Below are positions 19,851 through 43,676 of a DNA stretch of 64,000 bases, one piece after another. Each line of letters begins with the position of its first letter. Position 1 is the stretch's first letter. The position numbers were made by a program, and so were the translations under genes. The notes below the pieces were generated by a model that was not told the DNA's origin, made no database searches, and saw only the letters and a program-made list of their open reading frames with translations. The stretch lies in the NCBI GenBank assembly GCA_964036045.1, contig OZ038378.1:180352288-180416287 (forward strand), read 5' to 3'. This DNA comes from Eutreptiella sp. 'Long Island Sound 2002'. Its lineage: Eukaryota; Euglenozoa; Euglenophyceae; Eutreptiales; Eutreptiaceae.

Positions 19851-19977
19851 ATGGCAGCCCGCGTGAATCAAAAAGCCCGGCGGGAACGCCTTCGTCTCAT
19901 CAAGCTCACCATGACGGCCGTACCGGAGAGTTCTACATCCTCTTCTTCCTCTTCCTACGGCCCTCCCCTGGCAGGGG
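19851..19977 (+). CDS. candidate first exon of the module gene
   Basis: ATG at 19851 in good context (gtcATGG). The frame reads MAARVNQKARRERLRLIKLT, then a Ser run and YGPPLAG. A gtgtgg donor at 19978 ends it in phase 1, matching the phase-1 acceptor of the next module exon at 20282. The encoded N-terminus is basic and probably helical, then Ser-rich, with no signal peptide. An alternative frame from a phase-1 acceptor at about 19817 is also open. Too short to stand out as an ORF; supported by start context and phase agreement only. Confidence 0.4.
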
Positions 19978-20113
19978 GTGTGGGCGGCCACAACCACCAT
20001 TGGTGAGGAGGATGGAGTGGAGGCCTCCGTTGTTGTGTGCTTACCCCTTAGGCCACCGCGTCCTTGCCACCCTGAAAAAATGTGAAAAATGCAGGAAAGG
20101 GTTGGTAGAAATC

Positions 20114-20270
20114 TAAGCGCGGTGCGCGCGCGGTGCACCACGCGGTGCGCGCGGTGCGTATATCTCCCTCTGGGGTTGTGCTTTGTGCCACTGGGGTTGT
20201 GCTGTATGCCACTGGGGTTGTGCTTTGTGCCACTGGGGTTGTGCTGTATGCCACTGGGGTGGTGCTGTAT
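20114..20270. repeat. GCGCGGTGC block and third 21-bp minisatellite (about 5 units)
   Basis: The GC block (20114-20160) is followed by tatctccctc and then about five 21-bp units with TTTGTG and TATG variants alternating. The array stops 12 bp before the acceptor of the exon at 20282, so if the first exon call is right it lies inside intron 1. Confidence 0.85.
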
Positions 20271-20281
20271 CTCTGTTTTAG

Positions 20282-20404
20282 CTGCACTGCAAAAAAGGCG
20301 TCCCTCAGACGTGGATTGGATGGGTCCTTTCGACAAAGATCCCAGTGGCGCAACGCTGTTCGATGAAGCTGGAAGGCCCATCACAGGCCGACCCGTGCGA
20401 CCAG
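20282..20404 (+). CDS. module exon 4
   Basis: Acceptor ctctgttttag, donor CCAG/gtgagc (the strongest donor of the set). 123 bp, phase 1 at both ends. Reads ALQKRRPSDVDWMGPFDKDP, then SGATLFDEAGRPITGRPVRPG. RRPS is a basophilic kinase-type site. Confidence 0.8.
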
Positions 20405-21137
20405 GTGAGCGTGCATCACGTTATGTGACCGTCGTACGCAAATGTGCAGACGTGTCTCCAGATGCGCATGGTCCACCGCAATGCATGCAAAACGCTGCGC
20501 ACGGCATATTTACCATTTTTGTGGGCAAGAAAAAGGCCCACAGACGTCAGCAGGGTTCTTGAGAACGAGCTCATGTGGCTCAGTTGTCATAGCTCATGAT
20601 CGCTGACCAGCATGTCCCGGGCTCGAGCACCATGTGGTAAGTGGACAAATGTTTTTCAGTTTTTTGTTCCTGTTAGAGAACGTGCTGTCGGTTACTCTAC
20701 CACCGCCGTTGGTTCCCCTCCAACCGTCATTCGATATTCTCCAACCACCGTTGGTTGCCCTTCAAGTGCCGTCCTATTGTGTACTCAAATGCTGAGCTAG
20801 CTACTGGACGGCCCGAGTTTTCTTTTCTGTCTGGGGTGGCACGCAGGAGCGCACAGCTTGTTCGCGGGCTGGTGAGCTGGCGCTGCGAGTGATCAAGGGT
20901 AGTGTTATGATGGTGTCGACTGGCACTTTGCCTCCACCTCTTTCTCCTCCGGGTTACGGGGTCTTCGGGATTCTTGTTGAGGACTGTCCGGATTTGGGGC
21001 TTTTGAGGACTGGCCAGAGACGTGGAAAAGTGGAGAGGATTGTTGCGTGCTGCGGACATGTGTGGCCTGTTTATGTACATTTGCTCGGGAGGTCTTTCAT
21101 GTATGTCGCCCACCGATGTGCGCCTGCGGACACTCAG
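20405..21137. other. intron
   Basis: Contains a cluster of ccgccgttggt-type half-sites (20700-20770). No other feature recognised. Confidence 0.5.
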
Positions 21138-21260
21138 ATGCGCCCACGAAACGTCGTCCATCAGAAGTGGACTGGATGGGTCCATTTGACAAAGACCCAA
21201 ACAACGCAACGCTCTTCGATGAATACGCAAGGCCCATCACCGGTCGTCCAGTGCAACCAG
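21138..21260 (+). CDS. module exon 5
   Basis: Acceptor cactcag, donor CCAG/gtagga. 123 bp, phase 1. Reads APTKRRPSEVDWMGPFDKDP, then NNATLFDEYARPITGRPVQPG. The usual Gly in EYGRP is Ala here. Confidence 0.8.
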
Positions 21261-22215
21261 GTAGGACCCGCCATGCCGCTCCCCCATCCTTTGTGCAAAC
21301 AGTAGTAAAAGGGAACAAGGAGTAGCGGAAACAGCAGTTCAGGTTGATACCTGGATGAGTATAGCTTCGTCAGGAGCATGAAACAGGACCAGTTGTAGAT
21401 CCAACCAGTTGTGTGCGTGTGACACGCAGGTCACATTTTGCGGGCTGGGATCCAGCTGTTTGAGCAAATTACCTATGTCAGAGCCATATTTTTATTTCCA
21501 AAATGTGAGTCGGAAAGGTACAGAACCCCTGCCGTGTGCGGATTCTTAGAGCGGGGAGGAATGAAAAGCTGCATGACCCCTGCCGTCTCAGGTCACCAGG
21601 GAGGGCAGGAGTCCAAAAGGCTACATAACCCCTGCCATCTCAGGGACCCCCAAAGCGTTGAGGAATACACAACCCTCCATAACCCTTGCCGTCTCGGGGT
21701 TCCTATAGCGGAAAGGAATCAAAAAGGGTACATAACCCCCACCATCTCGGGGTCCCCGGATCGGCAAGGAGTCCTCCAGAGTGTCGCTTGTGTTTGGGAA
21801 CAATTACTCTGGGTATTAAAAGCCCAAATACATTTGGATCTTGACATCCCATCACAGTTGGGGGTTCATGGGTCTGGGTCCGTGCGATGTTGCGACGTGG
21901 TATGTGGTGGGTGGTCCTTGCCGATGATACAATCCAGGCAAGGATGTAATTAGAACGGCTGACAACCATACATGCCTGAATCCAGGGCCCGCAAAATCCA
22001 TTGGTAGAACGCTGTTTTGGCTCCAGATATTCAGGTGGGCTGGTGCTTATGAGGAACCCAATGCCCACATATGGTTTGTCGGCCATGACATTGGATGGCA
22101 CAGTGAAGTTATAAGCAGTCCAGGGTTGCACCCACAGCACACAACATTGCCACTAGTGTGTATGGCATGTATTGATTGTGTTGTTGCTGTTGGTGTTGTT
22201 ATGCTTTTGGTCCAG
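21261..22215. other. intron with degenerate tandem repeat
   Basis: 21520-21776 holds about five loose copies of a ~55-60 bp unit around ctacataacccctgccatctcggg. The reverse complement of this family is found at 56.15-56.33 and 58.48-58.82 kb. On the - strand 21960-22140 is open and reads like protein (SNVMADKPYVGIGFLI), unassigned. Confidence 0.5.
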
Positions 22216-22332
22216 TGCTCAAACGTCAGCCATCGCTTGTGGATTTTATGGATGATTTGGACAAGGATCCGACTGACGCCATGTTGTTGGATGAACATGG
22301 AAGGCCCATCACTGGTCGACCAGTGCAGCCAG
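22216..22332 (+). CDS. module exon 6 (type B, shortened 5' end)
   Basis: Reads VLKRQPSLVDFMDDLDKDP, then TDAMLLDEHGRPITGRPVQPG. The acceptor used by other B copies (ttcag/GTCCAG) is mutated to ttttg here. The AG six bases further in (tccag) keeps phase 1 and drops two residues, giving 117 bp. Carries DLD where others have DFD. Donor gtgtga. Confidence 0.75.
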
Positions 22333-23096
22333 GTGTGATGCGGCATTGGGCTGCTGATGTATTCTGAAGCTGGGGCTGGACTCGTTTGCGACTGCTCTCG
22401 GATCACGTGTACCATGCATATTTGGGATGTGGCATTGGGCAACGTTGTACAGAAATACGTTACTGATGTTTAGCAAACGATTGCGGATGGGGGATGCGGC
22501 ATTGGGGCCGGACGTTTGGGTGTGATGGATGCGCCAAGCTCTCGGGGGGATGCTGTTGGGGGTTACCTTACCGCAGGCGCTTGTTGCAGGCGGCTCCTGG
22601 TGCCATAGCGGGGCCTAATCAGTGACTGTGGCTGGACAAGAGGGTGATTGGACACACAAAACGGACGTGGACGCCTGAGCTGGATGTCCCGTCTGGTGAT
22701 GGGCACCAGGGCGAGTCGGATTGCGGAAACAGGGGAAAGGCAGAAGGGGTTAACAGACAGGGCCATGCATCGGCCACTCTAAGGGCTGGAGCCACATTTG
22801 CGAAAACGAAAGTGTGTGGGGTCTCCGTGTTGCGCCATTCGACGTCCAGGTGGTGCTGAGGACGAATATGATAAGGATTGGATGTCGAGAATGGGTATGC
22901 CCGACGTGCCTGATGGTGGTGATATGATGTCTCCCCTGGAACACATTGTGTTGTGCGAGACGTGCCGGGTCCTCCACACCGGGATAGCATTGCAGTTGTG
23001 ATGCAGAACGTAGCCGTTGCTCCGCTTTTTATGGGAACACACCACCCAATGTTATGTCATAGCACTCTTTTTTTATTTTTTGTGCTTTGCATTTAG
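22333..23096. other. intron with duplicated segment
   Basis: 22475-22735 recurs at 27535-27775. 22735-22925 recurs inverted at 27826-28190 and contains a readable AEDEYDKDWMS stretch. The 22930-23090 part recurs at 28465-28620 directly upstream of another A exon. Confidence 0.7.
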
Positions 23097-23222
23097 GTGA
23101 TCCACGCAAACGGCAGCCATCACTGTTGGTGGATTTTATGGATGACTTTGATAAGGATCCGAATGACGCCACCATGTTGGATGAGTATGGAAGACCCGTC
23201 ACGGGTAGACCAATGCGACCAG
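23097..23222 (+). CDS. module exon 7 (type A)
   Basis: Acceptor gcatttag, donor CCAG/gtgtgg. 126 bp, phase 1. Reads GDPRKRQPSLLVDFMDDFDKDP, then NDATMLDEYGRPVTGRPMRPG. Type A modules carry one more residue than type B (SLLVDF versus SLVDF). Confidence 0.82.
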
Positions 23223-23360
23223 GTGTGGTGCACGGTGTGTTAGTGTTGGGGATTTTTGGAGGTATTTCATGGTCGTTTCATGTGGATGACCGTTGTGACG
23301 TATGATGTGCAATGATATTGGGTTTTTGTTAGCGGATGCCGCTTGATGCAGGCTGGGTCC

Positions 23361-23547
23361 GTGGCAAAAGTTAGCAAAATTTTTTTTAAAACTTTTTTTC
23401 TAAGTTTCAAAAACATTTCGTTGCTAACTTTTTCCTCTGTGGGTGGATGTTTTACTAAGTATTTTACTTTGCACAAAAATTTTTTTCTACTAGTAATTTA
23501 CTGAGTAAAATTTATTTTCTACTCAGTAAACAACTGAGTAGAAAATT
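23361..23547. repeat. TTTTACTAAG/CTCAGTAAA hairpin region, left border of element 1
   Basis: T-rich and A-rich runs with TTTTACTAAG words. 23514-23546 is a perfect 14-bp hairpin (ATTTTCTACTCAGT, loop aaaca). Equivalent DNA lies at 24292-24435, 58262-58430, 61405-61506 and 62158-62237. Confidence 0.75.
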
Positions 23548-23582
23548 TGGGAGTTGGCTCAGATGTACACTGAACCCAAATC

Positions 23583-23990
23583 TGCTTTTTTTTTTGTGAT
23601 GGCACACCTCACATAACGTGCCACGAATGTAAGGTTCTTTATTGTACCTTGTATGTGTCTATCCTGTGTCAATGGGAGATGTGTGTTGGATTCCGCCAAA
23701 TCTAGGTGGCCAACCTTGCTGCTGCTTTTGCTGTTGTTGCTACTACTGATGTGAACACCCGTCCCGCTGTGTAGATGTGATGCAAATGGTATGCGGTGCC
23801 TCCCCAATACCCCGAAAATGCCAATGGTCGACTGAGAAATAACCAAGAGTTTTGCACCAAGCAACAAGGTGAACTGAAAAAAGTTACCTTTGGGATGTGC
23901 ACAATGAATCCCATAGAGGCAGGCAAACCGAGCCATACAGATACCAAGGCCGACTTGATCTTCAAGCGTGTCTTTTGTAATTACTTGGAA
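23583..23990 (+). pseudogene. decayed C-terminal part of the TTTTACTAGG-element protein
   Basis: One frame (with three stops) reads FFFCDGTPHITCHECKVLYC, then TLYVSILCQWEMC, a linker with TTDVNTRPAV, VPPQYPENANG and TKADLIFKRVFCNY. It matches, block by block, the ORF pair at 60.0-61.16 kb (FFCDDTAHITCPEC, VRPKVV, VPKHYPKDASG, KKADLIYKRVFCDF). The Cys pattern recalls the C-terminal zinc domain of piggyBac transposases. The N-terminal part is absent here. Dead, since stops interrupt the frame. It lies in an intron of the module gene. Confidence 0.7.
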
Positions 23991-24435
23991 GTAGTTGGCA
24001 CTAATGTTGGTTGTGACCCTACCGTGTTCTCTTTTTTAATACATGTGTGTTCGTGGCGCCCCACCCGGGCCAAACCATCATGTACACCAATTAGTCGGCA
24101 CTCGGCCAATATAACATGATATAATTGGGATTGGGCACTACAAAATCAGGCTCAAGAAAAGAGAGCCTGACAGGGCCATGGCCAACATCAGTGCAGCGGC
24201 ACTGGGAACAAAACTGGGGGCTTTGTGCCCTTCAACAAAAGTACCACCTACCATTGAAGTGTTGAGTTCCTGAGTAAAAATGGGGGGGGGGTTGGTAAAA
24301 TCTAAGAAAGTAGTTTCTATTTTCACTGAAAAAATTTCAAAAATTTTCAATTTTTTTGTATACTAAGTTTTGCCTCATTTCTACCAAAGCCTTACCACAT
24401 TTTACTAAGTTTTACCTCGTCTGGTACGAAGTCTT
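23991..24435. mobile_element. 3' region and right border of element 1
   Basis: 24054-24172 matches 61222-61302 in reverse orientation (gtggcgccccacccgggcc), while taccacctaccattga (24241) matches 61356 in direct orientation. A hairpin, tcaggctc-n9-gagcctga, lies at 24146-24170. The border has tttaccacatttt-type words, then actaagttttacc (24388-24418). Confidence 0.6.
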
Positions 24436-25027
24436 ACCGAATATCGTGAAAGATGCACCTATTCATGGCTGCTGCTAATTGCCCTCCCCCCCCCTCTCAA
24501 TTCTTGCCAAGCGAGAGGCCTTCACGTTCATGCAACCTACGCATATATTCAACCTAATAAGCAAGAAGTGAATGTGTAGTGTGCGAAAGGCTTCGTGTAC
24601 ATTTTGCAATGTTCCCTTGCCCATTGCCCATGCTCGGTCCAAACACCGAGTCCTGGTTGGGGTTAGGGACCCCAGGAACCTGGACCCTGGCCAACTTTAG
24701 GAATCAGTGTGGAGAGGTGCTTGCCCCCAGCCAAAAGAACCAACCGTTTCCTCCTCTAACCCCTCCCCCCTCCGGCCTGAGCCCCGGCCCCCCCAGCCTC
24801 ACCCCTCCGCTCTCTGACGGCCGGCGCCCTCCCCTGAGCCCAGGGGCCTTCCGTCAATTTTAGTGCGGAGGCGAGTCACGTCATAAACCCAGGATGCGAG
24901 GCACCCCCACGACAAGTTTCATTGCGATGCTGATGCAAAAGGTAGCCGTGCCCCCTTTTTTTGTGGGAGCAGCAACCGTTCTGGAGATGCCGTACAACCC
25001 TGGTGTACTTTGGTGCTGTGCGTTTAG
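24436..25027. other. intron
   Basis: C-rich tract (24483-24495, 24760-24850). The last 140 bp (cgatgctgatgcaaaaggtagccgtgccccc) belongs to the intron segment that precedes every type A exon. Nothing else recognised. Confidence 0.5.
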
Positions 25028-25153
25028 GTCCCGCACGCAAACGGCAGCCATCACTGTTGGCGGATTTTATGGATGACTTTGATAAGGATCCGAATGACGC
25101 CACCATGTTGGATGAGCATGGAAGACCCGTCACGGGTAGACCAATCCAATCAG
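25028..25153 (+). CDS. module exon 8 (type A)
   Basis: Acceptor cgtttag, 126 bp, phase 1, donor CAG/gtgtgg. Reads GPARKRQPSLLADFMDDFDK, ends GRPVTGRPIQSG: the final Pro is Ser, as in exons at 28629, 30369 and 31088. Confidence 0.82.
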
Positions 25154-25252
25154 GTGTGGTGCCCGGTGTGGGAACTCCCCAACTATTGGAATATCTGATG
25201 GCCGCTGTGGATGATCGTCGTTGATGTGTGATTTGTGTCGCTTTGCATTCAG

Positions 25253-25375
25253 GTCCAGTGCTCAAACGTCAGCCATCGCTTGTGGATTTTATGGATGATT
25301 TCGACAAGGATCCGACTGACGCCACGTTGTTGGATGAACATGGAAGGCCCATCACTGGTCGACCAGTGCAGCCAG
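25253..25375 (+). CDS. module exon 9 (type B)
   Basis: Only 99 bp after exon 8, so a very short intron (25154-25252). Acceptor gcattcag, donor CCAG/gtgtga, 123 bp, phase 1. Reads GPVLKRQPSLVDFMDDFDKD, then TDATLLDEHGRPITGRPVQPG. Has DATLL where other B copies have DAMLL. Confidence 0.82.
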
Positions 25376-26461
25376 GTGTGATGCGGCATTGGGCTGCTGA
25401 TGTATTGTGAATTCGTTCGCTGATTTCTTTTTATTGTATGCATATTTGGGATGCGGCGTTGGGCAATGTTGTGGAGCAATGCATTATTTATGTGCAGGGC
25501 ACGTTGGAAATGGGCTTGGGGGGGGGTGGAGCGTCGAGCCCCCGAAGGAGGATGGGGTGGGTGGGGGGGATCTGGCAAAGCGGCTCTCGTGACAGGCCAG
25601 TCCAAAGACGCTAGCCTAAACACCAAGAGGGAGCGCCTGAGAGGGCGCGCCACGGCGCAGCTATTTTGGCGACATCTGCGCGAAAGGTGTTGTGTTGTCA
25701 TTTGAATTTCTCCTCGCATGCCGGGCACCTCTGCGGATGTATATTTGTACATACACTTGTTTATTCATTGGGACCACTACAATGGGCCAAGGGCCATTTC
25801 CAAGATCATGAAGTGGGTGCCAATTGTATCATGCTCTTGATTGTGCCATGTTTGAGGGAAGGAGGGGGGTTTCGACAATTTGTGTGGCCTAAGCGTCAGC
25901 TCTCCTCAGGGGCCGTTTTTGGAGGGATCAGCAGACAGGGCGTTCCGGGTGTATTCACTGCAAAAGTAGGCGCGGTGCATGCGTGGCGCAAGTACTCCCC
26001 CAAATGATGACTCACCACCTGCGCCGCAAAGCGGTCCGGAAGAAAGTTGTTTCAAAAATATTTCCCCCATGATACAAACTCAAAGAGATCAGTGGGGACC
26101 ATTTTGAGCCGTACATATTGGGGTACCTCAGGACCCCCCAGCCCCCCCAGCCCCCATCAGCCAGTCGGGGGGTCACCGTCACGTGAGCCCTGAAGGGAGG
26201 GGGTTGGCCTGGAAAAGGGGTTCGAACCTCCGCCTGCGCAAGCTTATTTCTCCTCACCCCAGTGAACTATCACGGATAGCGGGGAGAGAGCATGACGCTC
26301 CCAACAGGGCATATGATTCAAGAAAGTGGTGTAAACACTACTGATGCCATTGCAATTTGATGCAAACGATAGCAGTTGTCCCGGTTTTTGGAGGGACCAG
26401 TGACACCGCCATTTCTCGAGATGCCGTACAACTGTTCTTAATTTTGGTGCTGTGCATTTAG
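25376..26461. other. intron
   Basis: Includes a poly-G/C segment (25510-25560) and, at 26205-26275 on the - strand, a tRNA-like stretch. The end (26300-26460) is the conserved intron segment that precedes type A exons. Confidence 0.5.
26205..26275 (-). tRNA. tRNA-like sequence (possible SINE head or tRNA pseudogene)
   Basis: On the - strand gatagttcactggggtgagg resembles an A box and, about 35 nt on, ggaggttcgaaccccttt contains a good B box (GGTTCGAACCC). The anticodon arm does not fold cleanly and the acceptor arm is not closed, so it is not called as a functional tRNA. Confidence 0.35.
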
Positions 26462-26587
26462 GTCCCACACGCAAACGACAGCCATCGCTGTTGGTGGATT
26501 TTATGGATGACTTTGATCAGGATCCGAATGACGCCACCATGTTGGATGAGCATGGAAGACCCGTCACGGGTAGACCAATGCGACCAG
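26462..26587 (+). CDS. module exon 10 (type A)
   Basis: Acceptor gcatttag, 126 bp, phase 1, donor gtgtgg. Reads GPTRKRQPSLLVDFMDDFDQ: the Lys of FDKDP is Gln here (FDQDP). Ends GRPMRPG. Confidence 0.82.
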
Positions 26588-26725
26588 GTGTGGTGCCCGG
26601 CGTGTTAGTGTTGGGGAATATTTCATGGTCGATGTGGATGACCGTCGTGGCGCATGATGTGCAATGATACTGGGTTGTTGTTAGCAGCTTCCATTGATGC
26701 ATCATGTGTGTCGCTTTGCATTCAG

Positions 26726-26848
26726 GTCCAGTGCTCAAACGTCAGCCATCGCTTGTGGATTTTATGGATGATTTCGACAAGGATCCGACTGACGCCATGT
26801 TGTTGGATGAACATGGAAGGCCCATCACTGGTCGACCAGTGCAGCCAG
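26726..26848 (+). CDS. module exon 11 (type B)
   Basis: Acceptor gcattcag, donor gtgtga, 123 bp, phase 1. GPVLKRQPSLVDFMDDFDKD, then TDAMLLDEHGRPITGRPVQPG, the standard B sequence. It pairs with exon 10 as an A-B doublet separated by a 138-bp intron. Confidence 0.84.
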
Positions 26849-27207
26849 GTGTGACGCGGCATTGGGCTGCTGATGTATTCTGAAGCTGGGGCTGGACTCG
26901 TTTGTGACTGCTCTCGGATCACGTGTACCATGCATATTTGGGATGCGGCGTTGGACAATGTTGTACAGAAATACGTTACTGATGTTTAGCAAACGATTGC
27001 GGATGAGGGATATTGATGCCCATGGAAACACGTTGTGCGAGATGTGCCGGACCCTCCACATCGGAGGGCACATGATGCAAGGAAGTGGTGTAAACCCCAC
27101 TGATGCCATTGCAATGTTGATGCAAACGGTGATACTGCCCCCCCTTTTTTTTTGTGGGAGCAGCGACACCGCCCATTGTGTTGTCAATTTTGGTGCTGTG
27201 CATTCAG

Positions 27208-27333
27208 GTCCAGCACGTAAACGGCAGCCATCGCTGTTGGCGGATTTTATGGATGACTTTGATCAGGATCCGGATGACGCCACCATGTTGGATGAGCATG
27301 GAAGGCCCGTCACGGGTAGACCAATGCGACCAG
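27208..27333 (+). CDS. module exon 12 (type A)
   Basis: Acceptor gcattcag, 126 bp, phase 1, donor gtgtgg. FDQDPDDATMLDEHGRPVTG: Asn of DPND is Asp here. Ends GRPMRPG. Confidence 0.82.
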
Positions 27334-28628
27334 GTGTGGTGCCCGGCGTGTTAGTGTTGGGGATTTCTGGAGGTTTTTCATTGTCGATGTGTATGATTGT
27401 CGTGGCGCATGATGCGCCCTGATACTTACGGCATCCATTTGCGACTGCTCTCGGATCACGTGTACCATGCATATTTGGGATGCGGCATTGGGCAATGTTG
27501 TACAGAAATACGTTCTGATGTAGCGAACAATTACGGATGGGGGATGCGGCGTTGGGGCCGGACGTTTGGGTGTGATGGATGTGCCAAGCTCTCGGGGGAT
27601 GCTTTTGGGGGTTACCTTACCGCAGGCGCTTGTTGCAGGCGGCTCCTGGTGCCATAGCGGGGCCCAATCAGTGACTGTGGCTGGACAAGAGGGTGATTGG
27701 ACACACAAAACGGACGTGGACGGCCTGAGCTGGATGTCCCGTCTGGTGATGGGCACCAGGGCGAGTCGGACTGGGCACACACGTGAACGGTCTGGCTGCG
27801 ATTTGTACACCTCAGATTCGCAAATTCAAGGTGAGAAGTGCGCTGACATACACAGATGGCGTCTTTCAGGGGTCTGAATCTTAGATGAGCCGTAAAAGCG
27901 AAAGGGTGGTCTAGTGAGCGCACCACGAGCAATATCCATCAAATCCGCAGCAGGAGGCCTACCGAATGCAGACATCATATCACCACCATCAGGCACGTCG
28001 GGCATACCCATTCTCATGTTGCGCATCTGTGACATCCAATCCTCATCATATTCGTCCTCAGCACCACCTGGATGTCGAATGGCGCAACACGGAGACCCCA
28101 CACAAGTTCGTTTTCGCAAATGTGGCTCCAGCCCTTAGAGTGGCCGATGCATGGCCCTGTCTGTTAACCCTTTCTGCCTTTCCCCAGTGCAACTAGGCCC
28201 TCCATACCTTAGAATGACCACCAGATGATGTTTTGAGGTTTTGATCATTGGGGCAAAGAAGTGTGTCCACAAAAAGCTCCAATACACCAGCATCAGCCCT
28301 CAACTCGTCCACACAAAGATGCAATGAGTCACAAACATGACATTAACACGCACGCACACACACATACACACCCTCCCCCCCCCCCTCTCTCTCTCTCAGA
28401 CATACACATAGGAAGCATTAGTTTACATGCAGTGAAGCATCGCGGATTGGGGGACATTGGTCCTCCCCTGGAACACATTGTGTTGTGCGAGACGTGCCGG
28501 GTCCTCCACACCGGGATAGCATTGCAGTTGTGATGCAGAACGTAGCCGTTGCTCCGCTTTTTATGGGAACACACCACCCAATGTTATGTCATAGCACTCT
28601 TTTTTTATTTTTTGTGCTGTGCATTTAG
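27334..28628. other. long intron with rearranged segments
   Basis: 27535-27775 duplicates 22475-22735. 27826-28190 is an inverted copy of DNA at 22735-22925, with extra sequence. 28330-28400 holds an AC-rich stretch followed by C and CT runs. 28465-28620 matches the pre-A-exon intron at 22930-23090. The junctions show that this intron is a patchwork. Confidence 0.7.
27826..28119 (-). CDS. antisense coding-like segment, unrecognised
   Basis: Open - strand frame containing GGAEDEYDEDWMSQMRNMRM, then DVPDGGDMM, FGRPPAADLMDIARGAL and RFYGSS. Possible splice sites flank the acidic part (catccag acceptor, TTCG/gtaggc donor on the - strand). A forward, shortened relative is at 22800-22925. The order acidic, DWM, FGRP loosely recalls the module (DFDKDP, WMD, YGRP). 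May be an exon from a related gene inserted backwards. Confidence 0.35.
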   Translation of the reverse strand: MRKRTCVGSPCCAIRHPGGAEDEYDEDWMSQMRNMRMGMPDVPDGGDMMSAFGRPPAADLMDIARGALTRPPFRFYGSSKIQTPERRHLCMSAHFSP

Positions 28629-28754
28629 GTGATCCACGCAAACGGCAGCCATCACTGTTGGTGGATTTTATGGATGACTTTGATAAGGATCCGAATGACG
28701 CCACCATGTTGGATGAGCATGGAAGACCCGTCACGGGTAGACCAATCCAATCAG
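28629..28754 (+). CDS. module exon 13 (type A)
   Basis: Acceptor gcatttag, 126 bp, phase 1, donor gtgtgg. GDPRKRQPSLLVDF as in exon 7, but EHGRPVTGRPIQSG at the end as in exon 8, so it is a mosaic of the two. Confidence 0.82.
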
Positions 28755-28839
28755 GTGTGGTGCACGGTGTGTTAGTGTTGGGGATTTTTGGAGGTATTTC
28801 ATGGTCGATGTGGATGACCGTTGTGGCGCATGATGTGCA

Positions 28840-29107
28840 CCGATATGGTATTCCTGATCCTCTCCCTCGTACTCCTGATTTACGGTTTCCCATGCACCGT
28901 CCTCGTCCTCCCACTGGTCTCCCAGTCCCTCTTCGCCCAGATTCCGTTCGTCAATCGGAGCATCTTCCGTCTCCGTCGACGCATTATTATACTAATCCTT
29001 GTCGTAACCTGAAACCTGGTGCACTGGTGCACCACGACCTGAATGGGAGGGTCTCTGACCTGATGATCCCTTGCCCCTTGCGCCTTTCGTGCCCTGGCTG
29101 CCGTTAA
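28840..29107 (-). other. antisense acidic coding-like segment
   Basis: On the - strand one frame reads GSQGTKGARGKGSSGQRPSH and a later part reads TETEDAPIDERNLGEEGLGD, then QWEDEDGAWE, with one stop between them. The + strand frame running on from exon 13 is also open (HRYGIPDPLPRTPDLRFPMH), ending in a stop at 29107. This segment is absent from the other A-B introns, so it is an insertion. Function unknown. Confidence 0.3.
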
Positions 29108-29135: not shown

Positions 29136-29258
29136 ATCCAGTGCTCAAACGTCAGCCATCGCTTGTGGATTTTATGGATGATTTCGACAAGGATCCGACT
29201 GACGCCATGTTGTTGGATGAACATGGAAGGCCCATCACTGGTCGACCAGTGCAGCCAG
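29136..29258 (+). CDS. module exon 14 (type B)
   Basis: Acceptor gcattcag, 123 bp, phase 1, donor gtgtga. Starts AT instead of GT, giving Asp in place of the usual Gly at the junction codon (DPVLKRQPS). Otherwise standard B. Confidence 0.82.
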
Positions 29259-29616: not shown

Positions 29617-29742
29617 GTCCAGCACGTAAACGGCAGCCATCACTGTTGGCGGATTTTATGGATGACTTTGATAAGGATCCGAATGACGCCACCATGTTGG
29701 ATGAGTATGGAAGGCCCGTCACGGGCAGACCAATGCGACCAG
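29617..29742 (+). CDS. module exon 15 (type A)
   Basis: Acceptor gcattcag, 126 bp, phase 1, donor gtgtgg. GPARKRQPSLLADFMDDFDK, EYGRPVTGRPMRPG. First A exon of the freshest block of duplications. Confidence 0.83.
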
Positions 29743-29897: not shown

Positions 29898-30020
29898 GTC
29901 CAGTGCTCAAACGTCAGCCATCGCTTGTGGATTTTATGGATGATTTCGACAAGGATCCGACTGACGCCATGTTGTTGGATGAACATGGAAGGCCCATCAC
30001 TGGTCGACCAGTGCAGCCAG
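29898..30020 (+). CDS. module exon 16 (type B)
   Basis: Identical in protein to exon 11. 123 bp, phase 1, donor gtgtga. 719 bp before exon 18, with which it shares its whole surroundings. Confidence 0.84.
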
Positions 30021-30368: not shown

Positions 30369-30494
30369 GTCCAGCACGTAAACGGCAGCCATCACTGTTG
30401 GCGGATTTTATGGATGACTTTGATCAGGATCCGAATGACGCCACCATGTTGGATGAGTATGGAAGGCCCGTCACGGGCAGACCAATCCAATCAG
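30369..30494 (+). CDS. module exon 17 (type A)
   Basis: 126 bp, phase 1. FDQDPNDATMLDEYGRPVTG, then RPIQSG at the end. Identical in protein to exon 19. Confidence 0.84.
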
Positions 30495-30616: not shown

Positions 30617-30739
30617 GTCCAGTGCTCAAACGTCAGCCATCGCTTGTGGATTTTATGGATGATTTCGACAAGGATCCGACTGACGCCATGTTGTTGGATG
30701 AACATGGAAGGCCCATCACTGGTCGACCAGTGCAGCCAG
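30617..30739 (+). CDS. module exon 18 (type B)
   Basis: Identical in protein to exons 11 and 16. 123 bp, phase 1, gcattcag acceptor, gtgtga donor. Confidence 0.84.
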
Positions 30740-31087: not shown

Positions 31088-31213
31088 GTCCAGCACGTAA
31101 ACGGCAGCCATCACTGTTGGCGGATTTTATGGATGACTTTGATCAGGATCCGAATGACGCCACCATGTTGGATGAGTATGGAAGGCCCGTCACGGGCAGA
31201 CCAATCCAATCAG
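31088..31213 (+). CDS. module exon 19 (type A)
   Basis: Identical in protein to exon 17, lying 719 bp after it. Last copy of the alternating A/B block. Confidence 0.84.
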
Positions 31214-32513: not shown

Positions 32514-32639
32514 CCGGGGCCCGCAAACGGCAGCCATCTCTTGTGCCGGATTGGATGGATTCCTTCGATAAGGATCCGACAGACGCCATGATGCTGGATG
32601 AATATGGAAGGCCAGTTACTGCTCAACCCCGACGTCCAG
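32514..32639 (+). CDS. module exon 20 (intermediate type)
   Basis: Acceptor gatctttcag, donor CCAG/gtatat, 126 bp, phase 1. Reads GARKRQPSLVPDWMDSFDKD, then TDAMMLDEYGRPVTAQPRRPG. It has the KRQPS start of A/B types but the WMD core of exons 1-5, linking the two groups. Confidence 0.8.
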
Positions 32640-33445: not shown

Positions 33446-33568
33446 ATCAACGTGCGCCCCGGAAGCAGCATCCGACGGATTTCGAGTGGATGGATGGCTT
33501 CGACAAAGGCCCTGGTGATGCCATGATGCTGGACATGTATGGCAGGCCCGTCCTGCCAATGCACGCAG
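33446..33568 (+). CDS. module exon 21 (diverged)
   Basis: Acceptor cctcgcag, donor GCAG/gtgtcg, 123 bp, phase 1. Reads QRAPRKQHPTDFEWMDGFDK, then GPGDAMMLDMYGRPVLPMHAG. The kinase-type Ser is Thr (RKQHPT). The TGRP end is lost but length and phase are kept. Confidence 0.75.
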
Positions 33569-34872: not shown

Positions 34873-36089
34873 AATCAAGACTGAATATTGGGACCGAGCT
34901 GGTGGGGGAGGAAACATCAGCTATGACTGGTGAGGGACATCAAGAATGATTCACACATTGATGGCTCTTGACAAAGTGAAATCAGCTTGCAAGTGAACCC
35001 CATCACCACGAGGCCCACTTTCAAGGCTTTTTGGACTTCTGAGGGGCCAAAATACCCCAAAATGGACTTCTGAGGGGCCAAAATACCCCAAAATGGGCTC
35101 AAAATGGGCTCAAAGTGGGCTCATTTCACCCGTTTGTGCACCCCAAATGGTCTAGGATGAGGTTTGGAAAAATGCGTTTTTGACCCATTTTTGACCCATT
35201 TTTGGTCCCAAAACAGCCCATTTTCAAGGCATTTTGGGATTTTCGGAGGACCAAAATGGGCCACCACCACCTGAAAACGGTCCAAAAACACTTGTTTTTA
35301 GCGTCGCACATGGTCTAGGATCATTTTTGAGAAAAGTCATCTTTTTGCCCCTACTGGACCCTATTGACCCATTTGGGCACCCACCTGTTTGGGCTTGAGC
35401 TTGCAGCTTGCCGCAGCCTAGTGGGCCTGGGTACGGGGGATCTAGGCGTCCGTTTGGGCAATTTTGAGGGGTGGAAACCCCAAAAAGTGGGGGGTTGCGG
35501 GTGGAGTAGGTGCCCTCGGAATCGCATTTTGAGCCATGTAGCCAAAGATATGGCCTATTCTTGGTTTGAGGCTGTCGGCATTTGGAGCTTCCAGGGGCCT
35601 TTTTGGGCCGTTTCCCGGACATATCATTGAGTTAGAGGGCCGCAAAGAGCTCGTTGACACGGGGAAGTCAAGCCGCACGTGGGGTGTACCCACCGTTTCC
35701 CTTCGTTTGGCCGTTTTGAATGTGTTCCAGGGCTTTTTTGGCCCAAAAATGGCTATTTTTGGCCCTAAACTGCAGTTTTTGAAACTGAGGTCTGCCACTT
35801 GCGAAGCCCGTTCCTGGCCGCCACCGTTGAGTTTCTTGCTCAAACTTTGTGTGATTGTACTTCACACCCATAGGTATCATCCACCAAAATTTCACCTGAA
35901 TCTGAAGCACCACGACGGATTTCTGATTTTTAGCCATTTCGTGCGTGCTGCTTGCTTGCTGCTTGCTGCTTGCTGCTTGCTGCTTGCTTGCTTGCTTGCT
36001 GCTAAACCTAGTAGGTCCACCCTAGACACTAAAAAGGGTTATAAAACCAAGACTGGTTCCACCAGCTCGGTGACCCTAACCCTAACCCT
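34873..36089 (+). repeat. telomere-tailed repeat, copy B
   Basis: Starts aatcaagactgaatattggg, runs through the AAAATGGGC-rich core and GCTT microsatellite (35946-36000) and ends in ccctaaccctaa, directly joined to copy C. Contains a local ~40-bp duplication (35030-35100, aaaatgg...ggggccaaaatacccc). Confidence 0.9.
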
Positions 36090-37625
36090 AATCAAGACTG
36101 AATATTGGGACCGAGCTGGTGGGGGAGGGAACATCAGCTATGACTGGTGAGGGACATCAAGAATGATTCACATATTGATGGCTCTTGACAAAGTGAAATC
36201 AGCTTGCAAGTGAACCCCATCACCACAAGGCCCACTTTCAAGGCTTTTTGGACTTCTGAGGGGCCAAAATGCCCCAAAATGGGCTCAAAATGGGCTCATT
36301 TCACCTGTTTGTGCACCCCAAATGGTCTAGGATGAGGTTTGGAAAAATGTGTTTGTGACCCATTTTTGACCCATTTTTGGTCCCAAAACAGCCCAATTTC
36401 AAGGCATTTTGGGATTTTCGGAGGACCAAAATGGGCCACCACAAGCTCAAAACGGTCCAAAAACACTTGTTTTAGCGTCGCACATGGTCTAGGATCATTT
36501 TTGAGAAAAGTCATCTTTTTGCCCCTACTGGACCCTGTTGACCCATTTGGGCACCCACCTACATGTTTGGGCTTGAGCTTGCAGCTTGCCGCAGCCTACT
36601 GGGCCTAGGTATTGGGGTCTAGGCGTCCGTTTGGGCAATTTTGAGGGGTGGAAACCACAAAAAGTGGGGGGTTGCGGGTGGAGTAGGTGCCCTCGGAATC
36701 GCATTTTGAGCCATGTAGCCAAAGATATGGCCTATTCTTGGTTTGAGGCTGTCGGCATTTGGAGCTTCTGCGGGCTTTTTGGGCCGTTTCCGGGACATAT
36801 CATGGAGTTAGAGGGCCGCAAAGGGCTCGTTGACATGGGGAAGTCAAGCCGCGCGTGGAGTGTACCCACCGTTCCCCTTCATTTGGCCGTTTTGAATGGG
36901 TTCCAGGGCTTTTTTGGCCCAAAAATGGCTGTTTTTGGCCCTAAACTGCAGTTTTTGAAACCGAGGTCCGCCACTTGCGAAGCCCGTTCCTGGCCGCCAC
37001 CGTTGAGTTTCTTGCTCAAACTTTGTGTGATTGTACTTCACACCCATAGGTATCATCCACCAAAATTTCACCCGAATCCGAAGCACCACGACGGAGTTGT
37101 GATTTTTAGCCATTTCGTGCGTGCTGCTTGCTGCTTGCTTGCTTGCTGCTAAACCTGGTAGGTCCACCCTAGACACTAAAAAGGGTTATAAAACCAAGAC
37201 TGGTTCCACCAGCTCGGTGACCCTAGCCCTAACCCTAACCCTGGCTCTCACCCTAGGCTAGGGTCAGAGTGAGTGTTGGGGTCCAAAATAGAGCAATGAT
37301 GTGGCAAAAGCAGCCATGAACGAAATTGGGGGGATCTTGTTCAGCCCAATCAACATGGCTGGCATGGCCAAACCAACTGGCTGCAAAGGTTAGGGTTAGG
37401 TTTATGGTGATGGTATGGTTAGAGGGAGGGCAAGGGGAGGTAAGGGGCGCCTGTGCCCCCCTCCCCCCCCCCCCAAACACCCCAAATCGCCCCACCTGGA
37501 CCCCCCCCCCCCCACCGACCCTCCCGGACCCCCCTCCCCCCCCAACCGACCCTCCCGGAGCCCCCCCCCCCCAAGCCCCTCCTAGACCCCCCCCCCCAAT
37601 CGCCCCTCCCTGAACCCCCCTCCAA

Positions 37626-37661
<36 letters not shown>

Positions 37662-37740
37662 GGGGCCTCCGGCCAACAGTTAGTTGGGGGGGTAGTTGGC
37701 GTCCAGAACCGAGGGGTTGCCCCCCCCGGGGGCCAAGCCT
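36090..37740 (+). repeat. telomere-tailed repeat, copy C with C-rich tail
   Basis: Same core as A and B. The CCCTAA tract (37220-37245) ends in the palindrome accctaggctagggt. A ttagggttagg tract in the opposite sense lies at 37388-37400. Then CCCCCCCACCGACCCTCC units, poly-C (37628-37659) and aaggggcctccggccaacagttagttg. Confidence 0.9.
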
Positions 37741-37881
37741 GGCTGTGTTGGTTGCTTCTATGTAGTTTAGTCCACTTGTTGCTTGGATCTGCTTCTCCTT
37801 GTTGTTGCAAGAGCACAATTGAGGTTGCTGATCTTTTCACATTCATAGAAATTGCCGTCATCCCGCCGACACAACGGACAG

Positions 37882-37950
37882 CGCGGCGTGCATCAGAGGA
37901 CGACTGGGATGCAGCTGCAAGGCCCGTCACTGGTCAACGCCTGCAACCAC
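37882..37950 (+). CDS. module exon 22 (internally deleted)
   Basis: Acceptor acggacag, donor CCAC/gtatga, 69 bp, phase 1 at both ends. Reads RRASEDDWDAAARPVTGQRLQP. It keeps the RRAS start and the ARPVTGQ end but lacks about 17 central codons (the FDKDP and LDE part). A deletion in an exact multiple of three with intact sites suggests it may still be used. Confidence 0.55.
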
Positions 37951-38559
37951 GTATGACTGCATGTTGATGCTGCTGTGCTGCTGAGTACCAAAGACGCATG
38001 AAGTGGGGACAGAGCCTCTGGAATGCTGACCCTGTGTAACAGAGCCGTCAACGAGGAACTTCTGGAACCGGTCCCCTCAGAGGATAGCTCGCATCCATTG
38101 CTGTGCTTCTTTCTATTGTATGTACTACGCGGTAACCAGCGAGCATTTATGGAACACCGCTCCACGGTGCACCTCCTCTGTGTTAGGGGCGTGGCCGTGG
38201 GTTCAACCGCATCGCATTGACAAAGTGGTTAGCATTTTTCTGCACGCACTTGTTACAATAAGATACGTGTGGAGTTGCAAGTTGGTGAATGCGTAAGTGC
38301 CTGCCCTTCGGAGCAGAAGGCCCTTTTGGGCCCCCAAAACGGGTCACCATGGGTGACAGACGGGTCAACAAGGTGTCGAAGAGGTGAGGAAAAGGGTCTT
38401 TTCATCCTGTTTGTGGGGTTGATTGCATCTCCCGCAAAAATGTGTGCCCATTTCAATCAAGTTCACGGTCTATGGTATCATCCATCACCATCCGGGCGGA
38501 ATGCGAGCCATTAGAACCGATATCTGATTTTCATCCATCTCACACGTGCTTGCTTCTTG

Positions 38560-38601
<42 letters not shown>

Positions 38602-38660
38602 GCTGCTGTTATTAATGCTGCCACGGTTGTTGCCACTGCTTGCTAGAAACCTTTTGTCCA
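37951..38660. other. intron with decayed telomere-tailed repeat and CTG run
   Basis: 38440-38560 (tatggtatcatccatcacc ... cacacgtgcttgctt) matches the 3' core of copies A-C, heavily diverged. It ends in a (CTG/TGC)n microsatellite at 38556-38602, where the others have GCTT. Confidence 0.6.
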
Positions 38661-38827
38661 TCCCAGACACACTCAAGGTGATACAACCTTTCTGTGTACA
38701 GTAGCTCGGTGCCGAACTGACGACACCAGCTCGATGCATCATATCCGATGCAGCGAGAAGATTTGGTTGCATTAGCCTTGCCATTGTGCAGTCCCCAAAA
38801 CAAGGAGTGGACCCATGGTGACGCATT

Positions 38828-39223
38828 TCACCACACTGCTCGGTTTGCATCCAATTCTGAAAATTGCAAGTATCCTGAAGTGGGGAGTTGATTCACTCTT
38901 GACCTCCACACCTGCTTGATGTTCATGCATGAGGTCATAACCTCTGTTTGTCCAACTGTCATGACCTGGCCTCGAAAGGCGCATGCAATGACCCCAAAAA
39001 ACTGAATTTTCCACATTTGCCTACTTTGGATGGGTTTGAACACAATGCATTGCCTCAACGGCCCCCCTTTTGGAGTGGCCTCTTGCACAACACATAGCCC
39101 TTTCAACACACTATTGGCAATTGAAAGTGGTGCATTAGGGCCATTGTGCGCACGCCAGGGTAGGGTTGCGATCAAAAAGGGGTCAAAAATGTGGCAACAA
39201 GCCCCAGCCCCTATAACACCCAT
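38828..39223 (-). CDS. open - strand ORF, unrecognised
   Basis: 131 codons without a stop, with protein-like composition: IFDPFLIATLPWRAHNGPNA, GGPLRQCIVFKPIQSRQMWK, IQFFGVIACAFRGQVMTVGQ. It continues open beyond the listed start on the 5' side only briefly. No domain recognised. Could be part of a transposon lying in an intron of the module gene. Confidence 0.35.
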   Translation of the reverse strand: MGVIGAGACCHIFDPFLIATLPWRAHNGPNAPLSIANSVLKGLCVVQEATPKGGPLRQCIVFKPIQSRQMWKIQFFGVIACAFRGQVMTVGQTEVMTSCMNIKQVWRSRVNQLPTSGYLQFSELDANRAVW

Positions 39224-39706
39224 TCATTTTGACTCACGAACGGGTTGCTGTGGCTGTCGATGGGGAATATGCAGCGGCATTTGGCCAGTGGCTTTCCTAG
39301 AGATTGCCTGTGCGCACTGCTTACGGTCCTGATGGTTGGATGTGAGGCGGGGCATCAAGGTCCGCCAGAGAAGCCACGCCGTGACCATCCCCTGACCAAG
39401 ATGGTTCGGGGTTGTCCGTGCCGTGAGCCCTCCTCTTCCCTCTGCTGGCTCCCTTTGTGGCCAAGAGCACAAGATGACATGTTTGTGAGGCGGTTTTCGC
39501 GGGAACGAGGAGCTGGGGCCACGCCCACTGCCACCCGTTTTGATGTGATTTCACTCCGATGTTGTGGGAACGAGGAACAAATTCCCAACCAACCACCTGT
39601 TTGTGGGTCTGTCCACGTTTGCCCCCGTCGGACCGACATTGTCCACGACTTCGGCCATGCTTCTGCAAAGGCCGGGTTCCGGATCACCTTTTCTCTTGGC
39701 ACTGGG

Positions 39707-40022
39707 ACGTACCGTAACCCCCCCCCCCCCTGTCCAAGCAACACATTGGTTTCGTCATTTTTCTCATTGTGGATTTTGGCCGTGTTTTTTTTTATTGGTC
39801 CTACTGTGTGCTGTGTGTGCTGTCTGATACCTGGGCTTTGAGGTGCATGATGTCCATATTTTGTTTCAAGGAAGCTGATTTGGGCATGATGGCCCTTGTA
39901 GCATATTTTGCCCCTTGGTTTTCAAAATAGTACACCATTTTCTTGTCCAAGCAACACGTTGGTTCCGTCAATTTCTGGTCATTTACCGTTGCTTGGACAA
40001 AATGGGGGGGGGGGCGGTACGT
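39707..40022. mobile_element. MITE-like element with ~36-bp inverted ends
   Basis: Left end acgtaccgtaac(C)ntgtccaagcaac, right end the complement of gttgcttggacaaaat(G)ncggtacgt. Within it, gtccaagcaacacgttggtt (39944) directly repeats 39731. No ORF of note. It ends about 90 bp before the acceptor of exon 23. Confidence 0.7.
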
Positions 40023-40111
40023 TGGCTCCGCAAACCTTGCTTCACCTTCCCTCGCAACCCCATTCACTGTGCACTCGGTGAGGCATGCACTGCCGTGGCA
40101 CCCCCTCGCAG

Positions 40112-40225
40112 CCGGACGTGCGCACCACAAGCGGCATCCGTCGGATTTCGAGTGGATGGACGGCTTCGAGGATGGCCCCGGGGATGCCATGATGCTGGAC
40201 GCGTATGGCCGGCGAATGCCTGCAG
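40112..40225 (+). CDS. module exon 23 (diverged)
   Basis: Acceptor cccctcgcag, donor GCAG/gtgtcg, 114 bp, phase 1. Reads GRAHHKRHPSDFEWMDGFED, then GPGDAMMLDAYGRRMPAG. Closest to exon 21 (shared GPGDAMMLD and DFEWMDGF). Confidence 0.75.
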
Positions 40226-41269
<1,044 letters not shown>

Positions 41270-41416
41270 GTGGGAGTGCGGCCACCTCTCCATCGAAGGT
41301 GCAATGGATGAACTTGCGCGATGGCAGCCGCACCCCAGCCGAGGCCTGTATGCTGTCCCAGATCCGACTGGACATGCGCAATGCAGGTCAGATGCGACTG
41401 GACATGCGCAACGCAG
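41270..41416 (+). CDS. module exon 24 (type C)
   Basis: Acceptor aattgttgcag, phase 1. Reads SPSKVQWMNLRDGSRTPAEA, then CMLSQIRLDMRNAG. Two phase-1 donors are available: GCAG/gtcaga at 41386 or GCAG/gtgtct at 41416, because 27-30 bp (actggacatgcgcaaygcag) are duplicated, giving 117 or 147 bp. S-x-V-x-WM and PxxAxxL keep the module outline, but DKDP and GRP are gone. Confidence 0.6.
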
Positions 41417-42070
41417 GTGTCTGCACCCTGTGCCCCCTCATGTCCTGCCGAGCAGGTGTCCACCCTTTTTCAAGGCACGCCCACGCATCGGATTGTGTGT
41501 GTGTCAACAACCCTCGTCTCCGCGTCAATCACCTTTCCGTTCACATGTCATTGCCTCTCACGCATGTTGGGACTGCATACAAGCCATCGCGCGTCCCAAT
41601 GCCGAGTCGCCCTGGCCATTGTGTGTTGCTGTTAGTGGCATCATTGCGTATGCCTATTGTGTCAGATAATATGTCTGCCCCGAACTCCAGCTGGAATTGG
41701 TCTCAGACCTTACTACTCAGCCATGCATTAGAACGGGAGACAGCCATAGGAGGAGAATTCCCCCCCTACCCCCCCTCCCACATTGGAGGCCCCCCCATGC
41801 TGACCCAGATTTTGTGGTGGCAAAAGATGCAATTCTACTGAATGACATCATACATATATTGGGGTATGCACGCGAACACACACCAAAATGTGGGTATGTG
41901 GATCTCACACGTGAGCTTGATCCAACAACCTCTCTGAGGTGATTTTATGTACTACAAATGAAATCAGTTTTCCTGATGTCTAACCCTTTGTAAATTCATC
42001 AACTTCGGAGACAAAATTATCCCCCAATGAATTTTTCGATTTTGACCTCCCCCCCCCCCTGTACCTAGGG
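41417..42070. other. intron
   Basis: No recognised feature. C runs near 41760-41800 and 42040-42060. Confidence 0.4.
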
Positions 42071-42445
42071 GGGGATTCAAAACTTGATTGTGTGTTGGTT
42101 CAGACCCAGGTCCCAGGTCCGAGAGAACTTTTTTCTTCCATATGGACCCCTAACCAATGGTGGGGATCCGGGCTCTATCTCCTGGTTTCCAATTTCAGCG
42201 CCCTAATGGGGCCACTAGTATGGACTACACCGTTTTTGGGCCGTTTTTGGGTCGTTTCACTGCGGTGTGCACAACTTGGCCGGCCTATAGCCGACACTGT
42301 GTGTCGCTCTAGACCCAGGTCCTGGAGATTTTTTTTCTTCTGTATGTCTCCTAACCAATGGCAGGGGTCCCGGGTTCCAGCTCCTAGTTTCCAATTTTGG
42401 CCCCCTCTATGTGGCCCCACTGGATTTTCAGACCGCCATAGATTA
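42071..42445 (+). repeat. diverged ~210-bp tandem duplication
   Basis: Two halves share acccaggtcc, ttttttcttc, cctaaccaatgg-ggggatccggg and cctggtttccaatttc words in the same order (42098-42210 and 42310-42420). Confidence 0.65.
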
Positions 42446-43547
42446 GTTGATAGATTGCAATTTCTGGGTGACCTCCGCCAACCCCCAAGGACCGCCTGCA
42501 TAAGTGGTTTTTGTAAGTTGGTTCAGTTTCAGCATCTTCGATTTTTCGGATCATCCATCATCATCATCCATCATCCAATCACAAGAGGGATCACGATTTT
42601 AGATTCTCTGGCCAGAACCCACTTTCACACCAAACCAACGTCAAAACAGGTCCACTCTACACCATTACAGACACCCTAAGTTGGCAGCATTTTGGACTTC
42701 ATTTTGAGTTCTTTATGCGTCAGACTGATGAAGACGGTATGGTGATTGTCGTCATTTTGGGTTCTCTCCACTTGGAGTTCCTGAGACGGCAGGATATACA
42801 CAGCCATTGCATGTTCACTCTGCTTGGAGTCCTCAAGACGGCAGACCTCCTCGAGATGCCAAGCCGAAGGCAATAGAATTTTGGTTCCAGACCTCCTCCC
42901 CACCCCCACCCCCTCCTCCCTTCAAAATGTAATGTAACATTGTTACTACTCCTGTCTGACCCTTCTCGTTCCTCCGTAGTCCCTTCCTGTTGCTGACACG
43001 TGATAACCGTCGAACGTGTATTTAAAAGGTGTTGCTTGGAGGCACAATCTCTACAGTAGCGGACGAGCGGCCGAAATGGCTTTTGATTTTCATGAGGGCA
43101 GAGTTGCACTTGAGAGCAAAGCCCTTGTAGACCCTTCTGCTGCCGTGGCTGCAGGGTCAGGTGCCTGTTGCAATGGTGGACAGTAGGCCCAGTGCGTCAG
43201 CCCCACCCCCCAGCAGCCCTTAGCCTTTATGGCAACCCCCAACCCCCCAACATGACACTCTGGAGGGTGCAAGACACATAAAATGATGCCCAGACCCTGC
43301 TCAGAAACCAAAGTACGATTCTGCGGATCATGTGCTTGGCAAAAAACGCCGTACTCAGCCCTGAAGAGAAATGATGACAGAAATTGCACTGCAAAGCGGC
43401 ATTTTCGATGACTCAAAGAAAACAGAAATGTATTTTGTTCCATGACAGTTGGTGCGTCAACTGTCACCGTCGCATGCGATGCACCCGGGGACATGTGGTG
43501 TGTTGTGGGCCGCGTCTACTGCGGCATGCGGTTTATTTGTGTTGCAG
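42446..43547. other. intron with inverted-repeat element at its end
   Basis: 42535-42600 has atcatccatc repeats. 43308-43466 is one arm of a dispersed element described separately. Nothing else assigned. Confidence 0.4.
43308..43466 (+). repeat. dispersed ~160-bp element, copy 1
   Basis: Matches 47494-47654 in reverse orientation along its full length. It ends in tgacagttg-gtgcgt-caactgtca, itself nearly palindromic. Two opposed copies 4 kb apart. Confidence 0.8.
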
Positions 43548-43676
43548 ACCCGATGTATGTCGATGAGGTCCAATGGATGAACAGGAGTGTGGAATGGACT
43601 GGCAGTAGGACACCGGCAGAGGCGCAAATGTTGTCCCAGATCCGGCCCGACATGTTGTCGCAGTACCGATTTGGAG
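43548..43676 (+). CDS. module exon 25 (type C)
   Basis: Acceptor tgtgttgcag, donor GGAG/gtcctc, 129 bp, phase 1. Reads DPMYVDEVQWMNRSVEWTGS, then RTPAEAQMLSQIRPDMLSQY. Shares VQWMN, GSRTPAEA and MLSQIR with exon 24 and no other protein I know. Confidence 0.6.

Follow-up and report, generated by a model that had tools for sequence, protein, structure and literature searches.

The locus and its module array

The window considered here is a stretch of 64,000 nucleotides of Eutreptiella sp. 'Long Island Sound 2002' (Euglenozoa; GenBank assembly GCA_964036045.1, contig OZ038378.1, positions 180,352,288 to 180,416,287 of the forward strand), and it carries a long array of short exons encoding copies of one protein module. 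Profile searches of the window in six frames recover 26 module copies between positions 1472 and 43676, including one cut by a run of N (m3) and one that is decayed (E19), and the clear copies are confined to the + strand. An earlier note, made from the letters of the DNA, had proposed an array of more than 20 exons on one strand within 19851-43676; the array proves larger, with 22 copies (E1-E22) in that range and four further copies (m1-m4) within 1472-4678, outside of it. Since the first profile was trained on the window itself, the E-values that it gives there do not count as independent evidence; a wider profile, whose seeds include modules from three other contigs of the genome (C15, C11 and C10), scores 25 of the 26 window copies above 8 bits.

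From E1 to E22 each exon holds a single module, the exons having arisen by tandem duplication, and AG/GT borders with phase 1 at both ends are readable in all 22. The array in this range is thus one of symmetric cassette exons, in which both ends share one phase and the length is divisible by three (22/22), and the exon length of 114-129 bp given in the earlier note holds for 21 copies, the exception being the decayed E19 (102 bp). The choice of phase was guided by the shared register and the CAG/GT form of the borders, as several copies have candidate sites of another phase nearby. E3 has lost the usual AG and would use a substitute 6 nt further in, with phase 1 kept, while m1 and m2 share one exon with a phase-2 acceptor and m3 runs into the N gap. 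A module-length open frame free of stops is present in 24 of the 25 fully readable copies. The features are collected in Table 1.

Table 1. Exons of the module array and candidate exons of the same gene (window positions)
Feature	Positions	Strand	Remarks
First tail exon after transmembrane exon	1369..1709	+	m1 at 1472-1570, m2 at 1598-1708; starts phase 2, ends phase 1
Module m3 exon	2471..2541	+	phase-1 acceptor; cut by N run 2542-2741
Module exon m4	4560..4679	+	phase 1-1, 120 bp
Possible alternative first exon	19818..19977	+	acceptor-like 19818, ATG 19851, donor 19977 phase 1, in frame with E1; predicted from sequence
Module exon E1	20282..20404	+
Module exon E2	21138..21260	+
Module exon E3, type B	22216..22332	+	acceptor shifted 6 nt
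Module exon E4, type A	23097..23222	+
Module exon E5, type A	25028..25153	+
Module exon E6, type B	25253..25375	+
Module exon E7, type A	26462..26587	+
Module exon E8, type B	26726..26848	+
Module exon E9, type A	27208..27333	+
Module exon E10, type A	28629..28754	+
Module exon E11, type B	29136..29258	+
Module exon E12, type A	29617..29742	+
Module exon E13, type B	29898..30020	+
Module exon E14, type A	30369..30494	+
Module exon E15, type B	30617..30739	+
Module exon E16, type A	31088..31213	+
Module exon E17	32514..32639	+
Module exon E18	33446..33568	+
Decayed module exon E19, 102 bp	37849..37950	+	phase 1-1 reading possible
Module exon E20	40112..40225	+
Module exon E21, type D	41270..41386	+	VQWMN...RTPAEAxMLSQI
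Module exon E22, type D	43548..43676	+
Possible 33-bp microexon	45791..45823	+	phase 1-1; weak candidate
Candidate penultimate exon	55116..55245	+	phase 1 to phase 2; predicted
Candidate last exon	56606..56690	+	stop at 56690; by motif and eye, the end MAAIRGLFKRGTT is similar to the C10 paralog's C-terminus

Link to an upstream membrane protein

Contigs of the window's own genome (2.28 Gb, 2205 contigs) are denoted here by C numbers, with C1 carrying the window. Comparison by tblastn of the C11 and C10 paralog proteins with the 20 kb upstream of the window reveals six exons within 12 kb, on the same strand and in the order of the paralogs (best E-value 2e-47). These correspond to the ectodomain exons, ordered as in the C11 and C10 proteins, up to a transmembrane exon that ends in phase 2 at C1:180351642, only 0.65 kb ahead of the window; since the first tail exon in the window also starts in phase 2, the two join in frame. 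Directly past the membrane segment, on its inner side, is a stretch with a match to the C15 module locus (41% over 39 residues, 1.8e-4). A hydropathy scan (threshold 1.7) displays one strong segment behind the ectodomain in both C10 and C11, along with an additional borderline segment (1.73) within the C11 ectodomain and one at the N-terminus of C10.

Because ectodomain and transmembrane exons lie upstream on the same strand and are joined to it in frame, the array most likely encodes the cytoplasmic tail of a euglenozoan surface protein that is giant, probably single-pass and apparently undescribed; the membrane topology of the tail is predicted from this arrangement. The symmetric cassette exons of the earlier note are upheld. 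The array, which the note likened to tandem-exon genes spliced in a mutually exclusive or modular fashion, is most likely no self-contained gene of that kind, its protein starting outside the window. For the same reason, that the gene continues upstream, the ATG at 19851 is unlikely to be the only start and was rejected as the sole one. The link across the intron between m4 and E1, like the last two exons of Table 1, is predicted from sequence.

This intron is mostly filled by minisatellites (5173-19432), comprised of a 21-bp unit repeated 300 times, a 96-bp unit in arrays of 6 and 27, a 49-bp unit repeated 18 times and a 21-bp unit repeated 49 times. All six frames are open across some 2100 codons of the first 21-bp array.

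The module and its bipartite core

The module is bipartite, with a VxWM[DN] stretch followed by [DT]PxDAxML[DS] and, in most copies, by a linker of the form GRPxTGRPxxPG. The VxWM[DN] stretch is often preceded by a basic RxxS of the kind favoured by kinases or by acidic residues. In a set of 48 modules listed and aligned by hand at the aromatic residue, Val is found two residues ahead of this residue in 36, Asp, Glu or Gln directly ahead of it in 39, and Ser, Thr, Asp or Glu three to four residues ahead in 43.

Docking motifs typically consist of two fixed patches and a variable linker. The second half of the module probably forms a short N-capped amphipathic helix, judging from its residue pattern, and the RxxS ahead of the first patch, with acidic residues in its place elsewhere, suggests control by a kinase. 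A study of Euglena gracilis describes an action of cAMP and a protein kinase A on flagellar behaviour (PMC13024336); a tie between that control and the array gene is speculation.

Relatives elsewhere in the genome

A search of the genome with the module finds its best relative on another chromosome at 8.5e-11, and with relatives on other chromosomes the module is more than a chance pattern. Clear matches outside C1 are located on C15, C11, C27, C4 and C23 (E 0.008 or better). The matches on C14 (E 0.78) and on C10 (E 2.0), weak in this first search, were retained on account of their scores with the wider profile, which reach 29 and 33 bits, respectively; C5:54.80M, C17 and two places on C2 (E 3.5-6.1, sequences not fetched) were treated as chance. 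A query with the last ectodomain stretch yields 57 genome matches at E up to 1, and module and ectodomain share a strand and lie no more than about 100 kb apart on C1, C15, C4, C11, C23, C14 and C10, which amounts to seven of the eight module places kept. The same genome gives 39 matches to the paraflagellar rod family (best 1e-105), with none in 14 control genomes, which marks it as euglenozoan; its size and its introns make a euglenid likely.

In the paralog tails the core VxWM[DN]...PxDAxMLD recurs, whole or as one half. On C11 and C10, very long open frames end in the modules, which follow a hydrophobic segment; the C11 frame of 4235 codons contains a run of N, after which 3385 residues follow. 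With 10-30 kb fetched per paralog locus, so that the counts are lower bounds, the wider profile finds tail modules above 8 bits in numbers of at least 12 on C15, 11 on C10, 5 on C14, 3 each on C27 and C4, and 2 each on C11 and C23. The pattern WM[DNGKQ] occurs 16 times in the C10 tail and never in 2200 ectodomain residues, twice in the C11 tail and never in 3180, and six times in the C5 tail and never in 650 (locus fetched in part). A further paralog at C11:68.37M, likewise fetched in part, has no WM core and bears the helix half eight times in 516 tail residues and not once in the 650 before. The paralogs thus carry the core only behind the transmembrane segment, and these counts favour the tail reading. 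The tail repeat of C5:25.28M is QWMDGFETDPND, and that of C11:68.37M, which corresponds to the second half of the module, is DDAQMLSAFGADPN; at C13:14.70M no single frame could be followed through the tail. At the latter locus (C11:68359039-68368494) a paralog ectodomain match lies inside an open frame to which the tool assigns 16232 codons, and is followed by dozens of tail-repeat matches at steps of about 111 bp, among the matches listed.

With 150 of 538 candidates scored, a query with the second half of the module returns at least 174 genome matches (E up to 0.1), often in tandem on C11, C13 and C6 among the matches listed. Behind another paralog, C10:23048993-23061722 presents at least 14 places with one module match each, spaced at 909-910 bp with one double step; the matches read across a TGA and, in the two units read, this stop lies past a phase-1 donor. 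In these two units, identical at 907/909 bases, the module exon is 102 bp long and runs from phase 1 to phase 1. On C10, ectodomain matches precede the module places on the same strand by about 15-66 kb (those near 23.05M) and 18-28 kb (those near 6.16M).

Single-module phase-1 exons are readable on C14 (5/5), C23 (2/2), C27 (3/3), C4 (2 of 3 profile hits, the third not read) and at C10:23.05M, with several paralog module exons also bearing candidate sites of another phase. Several modules per exon or frame are found on C15, C10, C11 and C5. The single-module exons of C1, C14 and C10:23.05M have multiplied separately.

Evolution of the copies

Comparison of 10 diverged copies with 200-bp flanks gives matches at E up to 1e-3 in 18 of 45 pairs, every one of them inside the exon or within 30 bp of it. 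The proportion of synonymous differences between diverged modules (pS) is 0.63 and that of nonsynonymous differences (pN) 0.25 (28 pairs of 8), and the diverged copies are under purifying selection. Exons E3-E16 stem from repeated duplication, latterly of a two-exon unit. In the newest unit E15 through E16 equals E13 through E14 at 596/597 bases, exons and introns being equally conserved. This identity, together with that of the C10 units, makes the expansion of exons look recent or ongoing. All four pairwise combinations occur at codons 19, 30 and 39 of type A, which suggests gene conversion or recombination between copies.

Searches for known families

The module was said in the earlier note to match no family, and this is upheld by searches of Pfam (all matches below cut-off; the best, Big_1, at 0.0013 with 19.2 of 34.9 bits) and of the Protein Data Bank (PDB), in which no match is better than 0.77. 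Protein searches returned only open frames of the same genome, namely P0001 (C15), P0002-P0004 (the window) and P0005 (C10); as each search scored about 8000 candidates and was restricted in length, absence from other genomes is not proof. P0001 had been considered as a relative in another species until its frame was placed on C15. Its match to the TFIIE alpha C-terminal domain (TFIIE-A_C, PF11521; 25.8 bits against a cut-off of 22) has a best stretch of 27 residues within the repeat, and was taken as a chance match inside it; PF11521 is not listed for the window modules.

Two other identities were discarded. The segment FDKDPNDATMLDE resembles an EF-hand loop (FDKDPxDAxxLDE); the C10 and type D modules have no such loop and there is little room for both helices, and Pfam lists no EF-hand family for the modules at a maximum E of 10, with scan filters that drop most weak matches. 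The PP1 motif RVxF suits KVQW in E21 and RTVQF in the candidate exon at 55116, and not the array.

For the ectodomain, an alignment profile gives no match among PDB sequences and Pfam finds nothing better than 0.11 on 11 alignment members. The C10 protein yields only a weak circumsporozoite repeat match in PDB sequences (0.022) and, in Pfam, one EGF match above cut-off and four below; the part of C11 scanned has no Pfam EGF match. Viral contigs searched with a two-module query and one ectodomain exon contain no relative, and no description of such a receptor family is among the papers listed by literature searches.

Other elements in the window

By eye, copies of a dispersed repeat, each about 1.2 kb long and containing short runs of CCCTAA, lie at 2742-3900, 34930-36070 and 36140-37260; the later ones also have parts that match the C15 locus. 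An element at 54407-54875 is shared with the C27 module locus, with protein identity of about 40-94% over different stretches. Two overlapping open frames at 60049-61159, with a Cys-rich end, look by eye like a transposon remnant and have no Pfam match. A possible start of the next gene, an ATG followed by a GTAAGT donor, is seen at 63058-63128 on the + strand. Nothing was returned by Pfam searches between 44 and 64 kb (three frames of the + strand, E up to 0.01) or by Rfam and tRNA scans of the window.

Interpretation

We consider it fairly probable that the array is a multivalent docking tail, with about 26 module copies borne by a giant euglenozoan membrane protein. Each copy would probably dock the same cytosolic partner, the number of copies would set how many partners the receptor gathers, and phosphorylation at RxxS would regulate the docking. 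With one module per phase-1 exon, copies could be gained by duplication, or skipped in splicing, with the frame intact. A bolder form is conceivable and in our judgement rather doubtful: a lineage-specific family of giant GAIN-like receptors of a euglenid in which exon number serves as an analogue dial, each exon supplies a phosphorylation-gated docking site to the tail, and duplication and skipping generate very many valency isoforms per cell.

Several observations weigh against the docking tail. The strict kinase form [RK][RK]x[ST] is seen in only 12 of the 48 modules, and the Ser site is absent from the type D and C10 modules, among others. Across the m4-E1 intron, 15.6 kb long and rich in minisatellites, only strand, phase and homology connect the exons. 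The recent type A copies (E4-E16) have 9 replacement and 5 silent variable codons, where about 78% of possible changes are replacements, and so display no selection above the neutral expectation. The weak first evidence on C14 and C10 takes a little from confidence in the tail; C27 has no listed ectodomain match nearby, the helix-half pattern does not occur in the C5 tail, and many single weak second-half matches stand without a listed ectodomain neighbour.

The behaviour of the newest copies, which differ much as expected without selection and whose introns are as well conserved as their exons in a locus rich in minisatellites, would also suit a flexible spacer or charge-rich low-complexity tail, with repeats that persist since tandem DNA duplicates easily and not through binding. 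This is unlikely, as the diverged copies keep their protein core by the pS and pN values above, with no detectable similarity between their introns beyond 30 bp, and as the core recurs in paralogs on other chromosomes. Quite unlikely, too, is a separate soluble protein comprised of the array and starting from the ATG at 19851, with the upstream receptor ending near m4. The signals of the possible alternative first exon are in keeping with it, and spliced-leader addition in euglenozoans could start messenger RNAs at such an acceptor-like site; against it, paralog tails bear module arrays directly behind the transmembrane segment, and m4 and E1 are alike in type, strand and phase. Such a soluble form and the receptor form may exist side by side. 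A decaying gene or pseudogene array would account for the decay of E19, the loss of the acceptor AG in E3, and the N gap and repeats that interrupt the locus, and is nonetheless very improbable given the stop-free frames of nearly all readable copies, the readable phase 1 of all single-module exons and the purifying selection on older copies.

Comparison with known systems

Multivalent tails and motif arrays are familiar from ITAM, DPF and FP4. The docking tail proposed here likewise repeats a short linear motif many times in a cytosolic part of a protein, and differs in the motif, in the large copy number and in the layout of one exon per motif. Tandem repeated exons are known from Dscam, titin PEVK and nebulin, in which, as here, repeated exons keep the frame when used singly, whereas phase, content and cellular place differ. 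Clusters of the Dscam type are mutually exclusive, with one exon chosen per transcript. Conserved intronic pairing elements, as expected of this type, were not seen within 200 bp of the diverged exons, where nothing is shared beyond 30 bp, the deeper introns and base pairing not having been searched.

Receptors with a GAIN domain are cleaved at a GPS triad, HL/T or HL/S. The membrane-proximal ectodomain ends in LGWV, DGWV or DGWI in the six rows that reach it, with no conserved HL/T or HL/S triad near the membrane; farther from it, the rows of C10 and C1 contain HLS and that of C11 HLA, as read without aligning residues to a GPS. GAIN-domain adhesion receptors such as ADGRB2 (structure 8oek) have seven transmembrane helices, in contrast to the one predicted after the ectodomain of C10 and C11. 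In brown-algal LRR-ROCO genes, one leucine-rich repeat (LRR) is encoded per exon in tandem exons, with exon shuffling and alternative splicing reported (PMC11378527). These genes share the layout of one repeat per tandem exon and the shuffling of exons, and differ in that an LRR is repeated within a GTPase, in contrast to an unrelated short module in what would be a receptor tail.

Surface receptors of euglenozoans are little known, and this family may offer a testable system relating the number of tail motifs to signalling strength, together with a handle for finding the partner of the new motif. Tandem symmetric exons are best known for varying the ligand-binding parts of proteins; here the recurrent target would be the inner, probably signalling side of a receptor.

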